DNA of 64,000 nucleotides from Alicyclobacillus hesperidum (GTDB lineage: Bacteria; Bacillota; Bacilli; Alicyclobacillales; Alicyclobacillaceae), in assembly GCF_900107035.1 (NCBI RefSeq), contig NZ_FNOJ01000014.1:1-64000 (forward strand), given 5' to 3'. This document shows, in pieces, positions 3,143 to 35,094 of the stretch. Under the pieces are notes generated by a model that saw only the letters and a list, made by a program, of their open reading frames with translations, was not told the origin of the DNA and made no database searches. The number at the start of each line of letters is the position of its first letter. Within the stretch, counting starts at the first letter, position 1. Made by a program: the position numbers and the translations under genes.

Positions 3143-3177
3143 CAATGAACGCGTCGGAATGTCCGGCGCGTTCATTG
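3143..3177 (-). terminator. probable terminator of the lipoprotein gene
   Basis: An 11-bp perfect stem (CAATGAACGCG, 3143-3153, pairing with 3167-3177) lies just past the stop codon of the lipoprotein gene. There is no strong T run on either strand, so activity is less certain than for the other terminators here. Confidence 0.55.
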
Positions 3178-22401: not shown

Positions 22402-23577
22402 TCAAGCCTCCCTCTCCCGCGTCTTCTTCCGCGCCGCCTCAATGGCATCCGCTATCTCACATTGCACCTGCGCATCCGATTCCACGGCGCGTGCATCCAG
22501 CAGGAGCCTTACGGCATCTGGGCCGCCAATCTCACCCAACGCCCACGCTGCACTCGCCCGTAATTCCGCCCGTTCCGATTGCAGAAATGGCTCAATGTGT
22601 GGTATGGCCTCCACACGTCCCATGTTGCCAAGCGCAATGAGTGCATTGCGCTGCAACGTTCGCACGCCTCGCCAACCCATTGCCGTCTCCCCATACACGC
22701 GCAGAAACCGACGATTGGACATTTGAAGGAGTTCGACCAGGTCGGGAAACGCAAGCTCTGCGTTGGGATGAAAGGCGGAATCGTCCGGCGCTTCGCGCAA
22801 CCGGTTCACCGGGCACGCCGTCTGACACACGTCACATCCCCAAACGCGACGCCCCATTTTTTTGCGAAATGGACGGGGAATCACACCCTTCATCTGCGTG
22901 ATGTACGACAGGCAACGCGTCGCATCCAGTTGGCCAGGCCCCACGATGGCCCCTGTCGGACATGCGGTCATGCACAATTCGCAGGTGCCGCAATGACGGC
23001 CAACGGCAGGCGGATGTGCGCTCGCATCGGCAATTTCGACGTCGAGTAACAAAGCGCCTAAAAACACGTATGATCCGTAGCGTTGGCTGTATAACATGCC
23101 ATTCTTCCCAACCCAACCAACACCACTGCGCTCTGCCACCCGTCTGTCGACGAGCGGCGAAGTGTCCACCGCGATGCGCCCAGCGACAGGCCTTCCTAAG
23201 CGCTCTGCAATTGCCATCTGCAGTTGCGTCAGGCGATCCCGCAAGACTTCGTGATAGTCCTGACCATAGGTGTAGCCAGAGGCTTGACCGCGCAGTCCGC
23301 CGCGCGGATGTGACCTTGCCAGCGCTTGCCCATCTGGCGTCATGTAAGGTAACGCGGCGACAACAATCGACTTAGCCTCCGGAAACCATAGAGATGGTTG
23401 TGTTCGCGCGGCGAGATCGCCAGCTTCAAACCCTGTTCGCCCCCGCTTTTCATACGCGAGAAGTGGTGCAATCAACTCGGGAAACGGTTGTGCATCTGTG
23501 ACGCCAATCTCCGGGAGATGAAGCGCAGCAGCCATATCCGCAATATCCTGCCGCGTGAGTTGTACAGAGGAGGTCAT
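22402..23577 (-). CDS. queG: epoxyqueuosine reductase QueG
   Basis: A 391-residue cobalamin and iron-sulfur enzyme that performs the last step of queuosine synthesis in tRNA. Two [4Fe-4S] cysteine clusters are visible: CGTCELCMTACP, and GCDVCQTACPVNR plus the earlier Cys of ATRCLSY. The DUF1730 N-terminal domain comes before them, and the last 90 residues contain HEAT-like repeats (ALIALGNMGR, AAWALGEIG) that bind tRNA. Its ATG overlaps the rnhA stop (ATGA). Confidence 0.95.
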   Translation of the reverse strand: MTSSVQLTRQDIADMAAALHLPEIGVTDAQPFPELIAPLLAYEKRGRTGFEAGDLAARTQPSLWFPEAKSIVVAALPYMTPDGQALARSHPRGGLRGQASGYTYGQDYHEVLRDRLTQLQMAIAERLGRPVAGRIAVDTSPLVDRRVAERSGVGWVGKNGMLYSQRYGSYVFLGALLLDVEIADASAHPPAVGRHCGTCELCMTACPTGAIVGPGQLDATRCLSYITQMKGVIPRPFRKKMGRRVWGCDVCQTACPVNRLREAPDDSAFHPNAELAFPDLVELLQMSNRRFLRVYGETAMGWRGVRTLQRNALIALGNMGRVEAIPHIEPFLQSERAELRASAAWALGEIGGPDAVRLLLDARAVESDAQVQCEIADAIEAARKKTREREA

Positions 23578-24014
23578 CGCGGAATCGCCTGCCGCGCGAG
23601 TTCGTCACAGCGTTCGTTCCATTGTACACCGGCGTGTCCCTTGACTTTTTGAAAGCGCACGTTGTGTGGTTTCATCGCGGAAAGCAGCTCTTCCCACAGG
23701 TCCTTGTTTTGAACAGGATCTCCCTTACTGTTGCGCCATCCGTTTTTCTGCCAGTTCACATACCACTTCTGCTGAAAGCAATTGACGACATAGGCCGAAT
23801 CTGAGTGAATCACCACGTCGCATGGGCGTTTTAAAGCCCGCAATCCTTCGATCACGGCGCGAATTTCCATGCGCTGATTCGTCGTGTCGCGCTCGCCTCC
23901 GGACAATTCCTTAACGTTATCGTTCCATTGCAAGATCGCTGCCCAGCCACCCGGCCCCGGATTCCGGGAGCAAGCGCCGTCGGTATAGACAATAACCGGT
24001 TCGCGGTTTTCCAT
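23574..24014 (-). CDS. rnhA: ribonuclease HI
   Basis: A 146-residue RNase HI. All catalytic residues can be placed: Asp12 (YTDGACSRNPGPGG), Glu50 (NQRMEIRA), Asp72 (HSDSAYVV), His127 (KGHAG) and Asp137. The basic protrusion WYVNWQKNGWRNSKG is present, as in the E. coli type. Start at 24014 is nine bases after GGGAGG; the ATG at 24023 overlaps that site. Degrades RNA in RNA-DNA hybrids. Operon with queG and ogt. Confidence 0.95.
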   Translation of the reverse strand: MENREPVIVYTDGACSRNPGPGGWAAILQWNDNVKELSGGERDTTNQRMEIRAVIEGLRALKRPCDVVIHSDSAYVVNCFQQKWYVNWQKNGWRNSKGDPVQNKDLWEELLSAMKPHNVRFQKVKGHAGVQWNERCDELARQAIPR

Positions 24015-24093
24015 AGGCGTCATCCTCCCTGCCACCAACAAGGTGGCATTCAATCCAGAACAGAATATACCGGGTCAGCTGGACGGTCAAACA

Positions 24094-24267
24094 TCAAGTC
24101 AACAGTTTCCAGAGGACAGCTGCGCTGACGGCCAACGATAAAATGCCCAGTGTACCGGCGGATATCTGCGCAGTCGCACCGGCGCGACTGCCGACCCAAC
24201 GAGTGAAGGACATCGTGTATACAAAAATCATCACGGGGATGATCATGGCAAACAGGAACTTAAACAC
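24094..24267 (-). CDS. 57-residue two-helix membrane protein of the ger operon (candidate receptor D-type subunit)
   Basis: A GTG at 24267 lies six bases after AGGAGG and eight bases inside the end of the GerAB-like gene. The product (starts MFKFLFAMIIPVMIFVY, ends AAVLWKLLT) has two hydrophobic helices, about 3-20 and 35-56, joined by a basic/polar loop RWVGSRAGATAQ. Some Bacillus gerA-type operons encode small two-helix D subunits that modulate germination; size, topology and coupling fit such a role, but this is inference from context and no direct similarity could be tested. No GerAC lipoprotein gene follows; rnhA comes next after 79 bp. Confidence 0.72.
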   Translation of the reverse strand: MFKFLFAMIIPVMIFVYTMSFTRWVGSRAGATAQISAGTLGILSLAVSAAVLWKLLT

Positions 24268-25414
24268 GCTGCATCCTCCTTCGGCCGCGCTGGCCCCCGT
24301 GCAAACGACCGCCTCCGCGCATCGATCTCACCATGGCACCAATCGATAACACCGCAATCGGGATCGCAAACACGACAATCCATCCCCAACGAAGTAAGTA
24401 GGTGCCGTCGAAATTGATGACCTGAATCCAGTTTTCAGGCCACATGCCTAGGGAGAACGACAACAGGACAAGTGCGGGTACCGCCGGCCGATACGTGGGC
24501 CAACCGAACGCCTTGCCGAGCAAGTATGAGCACCCCCACAAGGTGACGGCCATGCGCACAGTTGCAGCGGTCACCCACAAAAAGATGAAGATACTCTCCA
24601 GCCTTTGAAAAAAAGGCCCAAGATGAATCATGCGCGCCAACCTGTACAAGGCAAACGACGTCTTTCCCGTTTCTGCGGCCGGGAAAACCATGTGATAGGT
24701 AAGCATGAGCCCGACAAGCAACAGTGTCGAGACCACTATGCTGACAAAACCAATACGCCGCATTTTCGATGTATCGTGAACGTGTGGGTAAATAATGGTC
24801 AGCAACAACACGTTGGCGAAAATCGAACTGTATTGAAGAGAGCCTCGCAAAACCTGTTCTGGCCCCGTCCCCCAGAGCGGCAAAAGCATGTAAGGATGCC
24901 ACCAGTTGACGGTCATCAGACAGACGGCAACGAGCCCAACTAAAAGTATCGGCAAAAAGATGAACGCGGTTCGACAAATACCCTCAATACCACCATACAC
25001 GATGTATCCCACCGCAAACATGAACACCGCGCCGACAATCAGAATGGGGGTCGAAGGCAACACCGTGCTGACCACGTTTTCTGTAAACTCGCGCATCACC
25101 GCGGCCGTCGAACACAAGAAATACAGGGAGAATACAAGCGCGATCAGGATGGCGCCAAACCTTCCAAACACTTCTTTCGAAACCTCGACAATGTCCAGGT
25201 TTTTAAAGTACCTGCGCAATAACTGTTCGACCAAGAAAAATAAAATAAGCGTCAACACGCCTGAAAAAACAGGCTCCATCCAAGCCGCCTCATACCCATT
25301 TAAACTGATGTAACGTGGATAGGTAAGAAACGCATTGGTGCTGACGAAGATGATAAGCATCGCCGTCATCTCGGAGCCCGGCACTTTGGCGTTGCGCCGC
25401 GCCGACTGGCTCAT
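24260..25414 (-). CDS. spore germination receptor B subunit (GerAB family permease-like)
   Basis: A 384-residue integral membrane protein with about ten helices, of the Spore_permease (APC-like) family. Typical segments: a SFL-like first helix (TAMLIIFVSTNAFLTYPRYI), VVSTVLPSTPILIVG, and a C-terminal WGWIVVFAIPIAVL helix. GerAB subunits bind the germinant (amino acids in known cases). The ATG at 25414 overlaps the GerAA stop (ATGA) and follows GAGGGGGGAG. Upstream in-frame sequence to 25462 lies inside GerAA. Ends in a basic Gly/Arg tail. Confidence 0.93.
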   Translation of the reverse strand: MSQSARRNAKVPGSEMTAMLIIFVSTNAFLTYPRYISLNGYEAAWMEPVFSGVLTLILFFLVEQLLRRYFKNLDIVEVSKEVFGRFGAILIALVFSLYFLCSTAAVMREFTENVVSTVLPSTPILIVGAVFMFAVGYIVYGGIEGICRTAFIFLPILLVGLVAVCLMTVNWWHPYMLLPLWGTGPEQVLRGSLQYSSIFANVLLLTIIYPHVHDTSKMRRIGFVSIVVSTLLLVGLMLTYHMVFPAAETGKTSFALYRLARMIHLGPFFQRLESIFIFLWVTAATVRMAVTLWGCSYLLGKAFGWPTYRPAVPALVLLSFSLGMWPENWIQVINFDGTYLLRWGWIVVFAIPIAVLSIGAMVRSMRGGGRLHGGQRGRRRMQRV

Positions 25415-27213
25415 GTTTCTCCCCCCTCTTTCCCAGTTGACTTGCGCGTGGGCGCGCTCCATGGCCTGGACATGGGCTTTTGGCGCCAGCTTCGCAGAGG
25501 ATACAAAAAGGATGGACGCTTATTCATCGACCAGAGTGGTCCGCGCAACAAAACGTCGCGCGATGCGCCACTAGACGGCGCGATGGGCGATAAAATCGGA
25601 ACACCGAACGATTTGAGCATCGACAAACGAACGACATACACGACAAACAAAATAGCAATGCCGTAAAATCCAAGTACGGCGCCGGCAATCAAAAAGGCAA
25701 AACGCATAATCCGAATACCCATACTCAATTCGTAATTGGGCACCGTGAACGAAGCGAGTGCAGTCGTCGCCACGACGATGACCAACAGGGGGCTGACGAT
25801 GCCCGCCTGTACGGCCGACTGGCCAATGATCAACGCACCGACAATGCCTATTGTCGGACCAATCACCGAAGGAATGCGAATGCCGGCTTCCCGAATCAGC
25901 TCGATTGCAAATTCCATGAGCAGAACTTCCACCACGACCGGAAACGGCACTTGTTCGCGACTACCGGCAATCGCAAGCATCAGATCCGTTGGCAACATTT
26001 CTGCATGATAATTGGTGACTGCCACATACAGACCTGGTAGCAACAAAGCCGTAAACAGCGCGATCCACCGAATGAGTCGCATAAACGTGCCTGGCAAAAA
26101 GCGAATATTGGAATCCTCCGAGCTATGCACCAAGGACCAGAGAACCACCGGGACAATGAGACAATACGTGCTATTGCCTACAAACAGAGCCACGTAGCCT
26201 TCAGCCAGAGAAGCCGCGACGCGATCCGGTCGTTCCGTCGCCATGACCTGCGGGATCAGCATGCTCGGCCGATCTTCGATAAACTGCTCCAACATGCCGC
26301 TATCGAGGACAAAGTCGACGTCGATTTGCGATATGCGCCGACGCACCTCACGTACCAGCTTCGGATTTGTCACGCCATGAATGTACATGATGGCGACGTC
26401 GGTCCGCGCCAGATTGCCAACGCTGTGAATTTCGGTGACCAAGTGCTCCGTGCGCAGGCGGGCACGAACCAAGCCGGTGTTCGCGCGAAAGTTTTCGGTA
26501 AACGCATCCTGCGAACCACGGACGACATTTTCCGTCTGTGGCGTCGATACGGATCGATGTTCCCATCCCTTGGTCTCCATGACGAGCGCACCATTGCAGC
26601 GATCCAGAAACAGTACTGTCGATCCTGTCAGAATATTGGCCACTGCCTCTGACCACTTGTTCACGATTTGCGATTGATTGCTGGGAAGCAGTTTCTCCAC
26701 GACGTACTCCAGTGTTCGCCGCGGGTTTTCCTCGCTCACGTGCGTCAAAATCATCAACGGCTCAAGAATGGCCGAGTTGATGACGTTCTTATCGGATAGC
26801 CCATCAACAAACACTGCCATACCGCGCCATGGCGCCTTGGTGTCAACGCCGACGCGAAACTCCCGGATCACGATATCTTTGTTCTGTGGCAAGTGAAAAA
26901 AGCGTTCCAAGCGCCGCTTCATCTCATCGATGTCACATTCGATCTCGTCATCCTGGCCCACATGAGCCTTTTCCACCGCTTCTTCATACTCTTTTGTCGC
27001 TCTCCGCAGAAACGTTCGCATCGAGACAGGCTTCTTTGAGGTATCTGTCTTGTTTTCCGCAGTGGTGAAATTGACCGTCTCCGGCTGCGGCGTCTCTCCG
27101 TAGGTGTCAGCTGGTTCTGACGGATCATCGTCGGCGAGTGAAAACTGGTCGTCGAGCATCGAATCGTCGACCGTCAACAGGCGTTTAAGTGCCCCTGTAA
27201 AGCTCATATCCAC
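25411..27213 (-). CDS. spore germination receptor A subunit (GerAA/GerKA family)
   Basis: A 600-residue protein, longer than the usual 480-540. Residues 1-95 are acidic and polar (DDDPSEPADTYGETPQPE region) and look like a disordered extension. The N-terminal GerA domain follows (YIHGVTNPKLVREVRRRI, DSGMLEQFIEDRPS), then the conserved PxVMATERPDRVAASLAEG stretch and five or six membrane helices in the C-terminal half (PFPVVVEVLLMEFAIELIREAG, RIPSVIGPTIGIVGALIIGQSAV). GTG start with GGGAGGG seven bases upstream. Inner spore membrane. First gene of a three-gene operon. Confidence 0.94.
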   Translation of the reverse strand: MDMSFTGALKRLLTVDDSMLDDQFSLADDDPSEPADTYGETPQPETVNFTTAENKTDTSKKPVSMRTFLRRATKEYEEAVEKAHVGQDDEIECDIDEMKRRLERFFHLPQNKDIVIREFRVGVDTKAPWRGMAVFVDGLSDKNVINSAILEPLMILTHVSEENPRRTLEYVVEKLLPSNQSQIVNKWSEAVANILTGSTVLFLDRCNGALVMETKGWEHRSVSTPQTENVVRGSQDAFTENFRANTGLVRARLRTEHLVTEIHSVGNLARTDVAIMYIHGVTNPKLVREVRRRISQIDVDFVLDSGMLEQFIEDRPSMLIPQVMATERPDRVAASLAEGYVALFVGNSTYCLIVPVVLWSLVHSSEDSNIRFLPGTFMRLIRWIALFTALLLPGLYVAVTNYHAEMLPTDLMLAIAGSREQVPFPVVVEVLLMEFAIELIREAGIRIPSVIGPTIGIVGALIIGQSAVQAGIVSPLLVIVVATTALASFTVPNYELSMGIRIMRFAFLIAGAVLGFYGIAILFVVYVVRLSMLKSFGVPILSPIAPSSGASRDVLLRGPLWSMNKRPSFLYPLRSWRQKPMSRPWSAPTRKSTGKEGGET

Positions 27214-27344
27214 CGACGCACCCTCCCATCGTCTCGCAAACCATTTGTTTCATGTCTCGTAGGGTGCGACAGGTGACAAAAAGTTATCCCGCCGCCACCT
27301 CGGCGCCGGGACAAAATTTACTCTTATGATGCACAGATAGGGAT

Positions 27345-34536: not shown

Positions 34537-35094
34537 TTGCAAACGGTTGAGAAATGGGCGACACGCTCAGATGCGTGGACTCCCGACGATGATACTCGTT
34601 TGGCCGAACTCGTTCTGCAACATATCCGCTCAGGCAGCACGCAACTCAAGGCTTTCGAAGAAGCAGCAACACTGCTCGGGAGAACGGCAGCAGCCTGCGG
34701 TTACCGCTGGAATGGCGTGATCCGAAAACATTATCAAAACGAGATCGAAGCGGCCAAACAAGAACGAAAAACACAGCAGACAAAGGCCGATATAACTACA
34801 CCCGGCAAATCACTGCAGCCCGAGACGAGTGCATCTATGCTCGAGGTGATCACGTTCCTGCAGACGTTCGACGAACAATATCAGAAACTTAAGGCGTACG
34901 TGAGCCAAATCGAGCAGGAAAAGCAATTTCTTGCGGAGCGCGTGGAAACCCTCGAAGCCCAATTGCAAGCGCAGGGCAAGGCGTTTGAACAACCATTCTC
35001 GCCCGAACAGCTCGAAGAAGATTCGCGCACACTTTTCGCCATCATGGAGCGGGCTCGCAAGCTATTAGGTGACAACCGTCCGGCTGGAACTTGA
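34537..35094 (+). CDS. rsfA: RsfA-family prespore regulator (Myb-like)
   Basis: A 185-residue protein. The N-terminal 55 residues are a Myb/SANT-like DNA-binding domain (WTPDDDTRLAELVLQHI, RTAAACGYRWNGVIRKHY), followed by a linker and a coiled coil (about 95-150, EQYQKLKAYVSQIEQEKQFL). RsfA tunes the SigF regulon in the forespore. TTG start, seven bases after AGGGAGG. Upstream TTGTAC and TATAGT stand 15 bases apart, a weak promoter candidate; a SigF site was not recognised. Convergent with the DUF402 gene, three bases apart. Confidence 0.88.
   Translation: MQTVEKWATRSDAWTPDDDTRLAELVLQHIRSGSTQLKAFEEAATLLGRTAAACGYRWNGVIRKHYQNEIEAAKQERKTQQTKADITTPGKSLQPETSASMLEVITFLQTFDEQYQKLKAYVSQIEQEKQFLAERVETLEAQLQAQGKAFEQPFSPEQLEEDSRTLFAIMERARKLLGDNRPAGT

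Follow-up and report, generated by a model that had tools for sequence, protein, structure and literature searches.

An A-B operon with a conserved two-helix gene and an unlinked gerC suggest a split GerA-type germinant receptor in Alicyclobacillus

Introduction

The GerA, GerB and GerK germinant receptors of Bacillus subtilis are built from A, B and C subunits, of which C is a lipoprotein. Small two-helix proteins are encoded in or beside receptor operons, as with GerUD in Bacillus megaterium and GerKD in B. subtilis, and Ramirez-Peralta 2013 is said to be the main paper on such D subunits. In one report, GerUD is described as placing its loop outside and as remaining functional with its sequence reversed or with a single helix left (PMC4661057). 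The A subunit of B. subtilis GerA is presented as channel-forming and the B subunit as germinant-binding (PMC11841064), roles that may by analogy be assigned to their counterparts in the operon studied here. Receptor genes can also lie apart: split clostridial gerK/gerX3 clusters distribute subunits over more than one transcription unit (PMC5684421, PMC5935672), and yndF2 of Bacillus licheniformis is a single gerAC homolog outside the A-B-C operons (PMC4021175). Literature searches on Alicyclobacillus receptors, on split, orphan and one-gene receptors, on receptor distribution and on D subunits gave nothing that we recognised as the arrangement reported below.

Because Alicyclobacillus spores spoil acidic juices, a receptor conserved throughout the genus has practical relevance. 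We analysed a stretch of 64,000 nucleotides from Alicyclobacillus hesperidum (contig NZ_FNOJ01000014.1, positions 1 to 64,000; "the window"), which carries a receptor operon made up of A, B and a small gene that we call D. Our preferred reading, to which we give a probability of roughly 0.85, is that these genes encode three parts of a split four-subunit GerA-type receptor whose C subunit would be supplied in trans from an unlinked locus. The basis of this reading is orthology, synteny, conservation, the lipobox and promoter-site enrichment in relatives.

Results

Layout of the window operon

The operon and its downstream neighbour comprise the following features.

25411..27213, minus strand: gerA-type A subunit, 600 aa from a GTG start; PF03323 586 bits (cut-off 27)
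24260..25414, minus strand: gerB-type B subunit, 384 aa; PF03845 157 bits (cut-off 23.4)
24275..24280, minus strand: AGGAGG, putative ribosome-binding site of D, inside the last B codons
24094..24267, minus strand: D, predicted two-helix membrane protein, 57 aa, GTG start, overlapping the B stop by 8 bases
23574..24053, minus strand: rnhA, the next gene downstream; NF001236 over cut-off; a synteny marker outside the receptor

An alternative ATG start for A lies at 27207, and residues 111-359 of A have solved relatives (6o59 and 9prb). B also matches TIGR00912 of NCBIfam over its cut-off, with 145 bits, and its ATG (25414-25412) forms an ATGA overlap with the A stop. By these profile matches A and B are members of the GerA-type receptor families. 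In a further NCBIfam comparison the GerXA model alone was matched, far below cut-off. It counts against a place in the SpoVAF/FigP clade, whose A-type proteins lack B and C, that the window A adjoins B and that the A genes of its relatives adjoin B and C. The original prediction, made from the letters of the window, had described GerAA-like and GerAB-like genes joined by ATGA, a short GTG-started gene with its AGGAGG in the last gerAB codons and an eight-base overlap, and no GerAC gene at the locus; the Pfam and NCBIfam matches and the sequence itself bear out each of these points.

The window locus has no gerC. The same holds among relatives, where C matches were found at 0 of 41 A-B loci of the window's family and at 0 of the 13 read in its sister family, most of them scanned with about 1.5 kb or more of downstream sequence. 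All but one of the 41 family genomes have a B ortholog (query 24260-25417, one codon longer upstream than the B gene); the exception, G034, is 62% complete and gave a weak match only. rnhA is kept at 35 of the 41 loci of the family and at all 13 of the sister family. At ten of the 13 sister-family loci (L130-L133, L137-L142) a gap of about 1 kb separates D from rnhA, and a gerC hidden there was considered and rejected: the gap holds a convergent ORF, without a C match. The one such ORF examined by profile (L142) is a polysaccharide deacetylase (PF01522, 107 bits).

A conserved small gene behind B

D lies behind B in all 40 family genomes with a located A-B locus, at 56-62 aa when relatives' starts are chosen, partly by ribosome-binding-like sites upstream, and 33 of the 40 share the identical 8-base overlap. 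A profile built solely from family members found D in 40 of the 41 genomes of the family and in 14 of the 18 of the sister family, with a second, weak match in three sister-family genomes (E 4e-4 to 1e-3); at all 13 sister-family loci read, of the 14 with a D match, D is again behind B. The A-B-small operon that the original prediction put forward as a possible new arrangement does exist; it is shared by two families of one order and departs from the usual layout, and the small ORF singled out there is conserved in relatives. Its two membrane helices also hold: hydropathy agrees with an AlphaFold model that is a helical hairpin (residues 2-29 and 31-56, mean pLDDT 97.3). The loop of D has a mean charge between +2.9 and +3.3; for both ends combined the figure is about +0.7 to +1.5.

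Nine close pairs gave D dN/dS values of 0.04-0.26, dS being saturated in a tenth. Across 30 representatives Tyr17 is invariant and Trp24 nearly so, and some clostridial or MAG operons encode divergent D forms with Y, [NS][FY] and W patterns. We reject a chance ORF on conservation and dN/dS, and on this comparative evidence D is a real gene. That D might be a spurious ORF or a membrane leftover without a role would fit its shortness and the absence of a match to window D in Pfam and NCBIfam, or of a convincing Pfam match to other D members. A spurious frame is nevertheless hard to reconcile with the dN/dS range, with the two conserved aromatic residues, or with a protein recognisable from Alicyclobacillus to clostridial operons. 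Moreover, a widened D profile matched 60 of the 398 genomes of a class draw once each, 58 of them with a B homolog, although this profile was built from many of the same D sequences, so that their own matches follow. The two exceptions, G186 and G295, have a D match without B at its limit, and the G295 match is weak and contains stops. We consider a role-less D scarcely credible.

A matching gerC at a second locus

The window genome (G000) contains six GerA-family, five GerAC and ten spore-permease matches, two of the ten below cut-off. Four of the gerC matches adjoin A and B matches; the fifth is the only one that does not, and it provides the gerAC elsewhere in the genome for which the original prediction had suggested looking. 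As a separate observation, another receptor operon of this genome (L023, G000:C37:4290-9253) encodes two B subunits, arranged A-C-B-B.

G000:C31, about 92073-93338, minus strand: orphan gerC, downstream of an RsfA-family gene and unlinked to A-B-D

The orphan encodes a complete Ger(x)C protein, over cut-off for PF25198 (104 bits), PF05504 (87 bits) and TIGR02887; a PDB sequence search gave no match at E 0.01. An ortholog is present in 41 of 41 family genomes, the next C matches falling to E about 1e-15. We read the orphan-C loci of 40 of these genomes (all except G022) and of eight sister-family genomes. The lipobox cysteine is present in 40 of 40 family copies and in seven of eight sister-family copies, the eighth being cut at a contig end. 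Where a genome is assembled as a single contig, C and B lie far from each other, as at 1,177 and 579 kb in G003 and at 3,163 and 4,508 kb in G008.

An RsfA-family gene stands upstream of the orphan on the same strand at 36 of 40 family loci, the other four having been read with a 1.5 kb flank, and at seven of eight sister-family loci, the eighth starting at a contig end. In the window genome this neighbour also matches the YlbO and GerR models, below their cut-offs, and could be GerR-like. In B. subtilis RsfA is described as acting in the forespore and GerR as a mother-cell factor (PMC4383634); since the YlbO and GerR models match too, we do not take the neighbour as a sign of forespore expression. 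A second RsfA-family gene lies in the window itself (34537-35094, plus strand; TIGR02894 137 bits, over cut-off).

These copies bear directly on the suggestion of the original prediction that the small protein may replace the lipoprotein, the receptor then working as A-B-D without any C. In the window and at the order loci read, D does stand where C would be expected, immediately after B. Nevertheless, a matching C is kept in every one of the 41 family genomes, with its lipobox in all 40 copies read, and the modelled D consists of two membrane helices with no outer domain. Together with the position of D in intact operons, described below, and with homologs of the orphan that adjoin homologs of window B outside the order, this leads us to set the replacement aside as very improbable.

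The undivided operon outside the order

The class draw (398 genomes) yielded 61 genomes with a B homolog (limit E 1e-30) and 72 with a C homolog (limit 1e-25). Of the 23 B loci lying beyond the order, all except G215, G257 and G390 were read (20 loci). At 20 of 20, the closest homologs of window B and of the orphan C adjoin, C directly behind B, and at 19 D follows C, 18 times by ORF scan and once (G135) by profile; at L162 no D was found behind C. Two of the 18 ORF-scan assignments, those at L160 and L161, concern highly divergent sequences (14% and 9% identical to window D) and depend mainly on position. With the widened profile, 20 of the 23 outside-order genomes with B have a D match (not G192, G215 and G390). 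rnhA directly follows D in L148, L152 and L155 with C still in the operon, and lies past D by about 0.9 kb in L150 and about 2.6 kb in L143, so that these loci display the synteny of the window with C still in place. The original prediction had envisaged, as a counter-case, a GerAC gene next to a homologous operon with the small frame disrupted; outside the order the gerC is indeed present, yet the small frame is unbroken.

Since B and orphan-C homologs adjoin in one operon outside the order, the receptor was apparently encoded by one A-B-C-D operon in the ancestor. The C gene would then have moved to a second locus in the lineage leading to Alicyclobacillus and Sulfoacidibacillus/Ferroacidibacillus, and D would have closed up onto the end of B after C left. 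D itself most likely predates the loss, given its place behind C in intact operons, and for the same reason we reject the idea that D is what is left of C. The small protein has the look of a long-standing, conserved fourth component of this receptor.

A scan of named genomes with the B alignment gave 53 loci, many from assemblies shared with the other genome sets, so that these counts are not independent of those above. C is missing from 32 of the 53, all of which have D; the remaining 21 are A-B-C. The loci without C belong to 18 Alicyclobacillus records, Sulfoacidibacillus thermotolerans, Ferroacidibacillus organovorans, one Alicyclobacillaceae MAG and 11 Bacillota MAGs, and those with C include four Tumebacillus species, Brevibacillus massiliensis and the clostridium Anaerobacterium chartisolvens. 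NCBI places Tumebacillus and Sulfoacidibacillus both in Alicyclobacillaceae, while the family codes of the genome collection part them. No D was detected in seven of the 21 A-B-C loci (L211, L216, L217, L230-L233), of which L217 ends inside C. The L217 MAG also carries two receptor operons back to back, one per strand.

Phylogeny of the C subunits

A tree was built from 60 of 89 C proteins, after half of the family orphans had been removed together with near-duplicates and fragments. In it, orphans from both families nest inside operon copies with an SH-aLRT of 99, in a group of 42 rows (20 + 7 orphans and 15 operon copies). The branch that parts this group from the four other C proteins of the genome and GerUC is weak (76) and involves long rows. 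A more careful tree of 40 rows did not join the orphans of the two families as sisters, and a single orphan clade was not rejected (AU p 0.215). Two separate relocations may have occurred, though a single one is simplest, given that C follows a neighbour gene of the same type in both families.

The orphan C might instead serve another receptor or several, with A-B-D borrowing its C from an A-C-B operon. Four more gerC genes are available in the other operons of the genome, and in B. megaterium a B subunit encoded alone is described as working with GerUA and GerUC (PMC5935672). The orphan, however, is closest to the C proteins that adjoin B homologs elsewhere, and its orthologs and those of B are both kept across the family, far ahead of the next C matches. 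We judge borrowing improbable and retain the split receptor, with the orphan as its own C.

Sigma-G-type sites before both units

Upstream regions were scanned for GHATR-N17/18-CATNHTA, which we take to be the sigma-G consensus, allowing at most one mismatch, with expectations from block shuffles; a literature search for the consensus letters found no paper on the consensus. Sites were present before 25 of 47 orphan-C genes (expected 1.64). When nine C loci were rescanned beyond the mechanical start, four more had a site (29 of 47), among them the window genome, with a perfect one. That site falls inside the mechanically extended N-terminus of C, and the true start is therefore probably MRLMSW (L022:9339). 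For A, 19 of 29 upstream regions had a site (expected 0.98), the 29 being those of the 53 named loci with a complete, alignable start. Control regions of six neighbour genes had a site in 2 of 101 cases (rnhA 2/30, queG 0/29, nth 0/26, thiI 0/6, rsfA 0/9, clpP 0/1). As a positive control, four of the five other GerA-family genes of the genome had one, although the stretches scanned were longer there, at about 360 bases and above. The fifth (L027, G000:C8:135351-136721) has no B or C match beside it and is possibly spoVAF; against NCBIfam it matches GerXA only, below cut-off.

27260..27289, minus strand: best sigma-G-like site upstream of A, a weak one; GGATA, 18-base spacer, CACCCTA, with two mismatches to the consensus used

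Among near relatives of the window A, five named A genes likewise lacked a site within one mismatch, and none was found at seven sister-family C loci. On the enrichment in relatives, both units may be expressed in the forespore under sigma G.

Discussion

Taken together, the data are best read as a receptor divided between two unlinked units. In the mechanism that we propose, sigma G would direct reading of both in the forespore; A, B and D would enter the spore inner membrane, C would be lipidated and sit on its outer face, and the four subunits would assemble, C joining A-B-D in one complex. Germinant binding to B would then open the A channel, as has been proposed for B. subtilis GerA, and nutrient-triggered germination is the predicted role. 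D may pack against the membrane helices of A or B, serving as an assembly, stability or sensitivity subunit.

A broader reading, which we hold to be evenly balanced, is that D has from early on been a core fourth subunit of an A-B-C-D receptor class of its own, one that spans Bacilli and Clostridia, and that D is unrelated to GerUD and oppositely oriented in the membrane. On this reading one whole order has divided the receptor, which almost all species examined retain, into two unlinked forespore units. If so, control of C would be separate from control of A-B-D. The arrangement matters on two counts. It points to receptors whose small fourth subunit is constrained in sequence and can be probed by simple deletion or point changes, unlike the reversal- and truncation-tolerant GerUD. 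It is also a natural case in which a usually needed subunit has moved to another locus and been kept in every family genome examined, which opens the question of whether C works solely within the complex to direct test.

Comparison with known receptors

The window receptor shares with B. subtilis GerA, GerB and GerK the families of its A, B and C, a lipoprotein C and, in window relatives, sigma-G-type sites before its units. It departs from them in its unlinked C and its small conserved fourth protein, the operon reading A-B-D rather than the usual A-B-C or A-C-B. A C gene in the same operon is a usual, though not universal, feature of GerA-type receptors; it is absent here, and a matching C is found elsewhere in the genome. 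In the clostridial gerK/gerX3 clusters, B stands alone in the opposite direction to A and C, whereas here C is alone and far away. In the case of yndF2, the ynd operon keeps a C (F1), while the Alicyclobacillus orphan appears to be the missing C of its operon.

The small protein resembles GerUD and GerKD as a two-helix product encoded in or beside a receptor operon, and the likeness to D subunits noted in the original prediction stands by position and size. Profile comparison of D with four GerUD-like proteins (hhalign, GerKD lying outside the comparison) gave a probability of 0.1%, and homology of D to GerUD was rejected for want of profile similarity; D is likened to D subunits by position and size. 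The GerUD loop is net negative (-1) and that of window D basic, which suggests an opposite topology, and the charge pattern points the same way in 49 of 59 D proteins. Finally, GerUD is described as working even with its sequence reversed (PMC4661057), whereas D has conserved residues.
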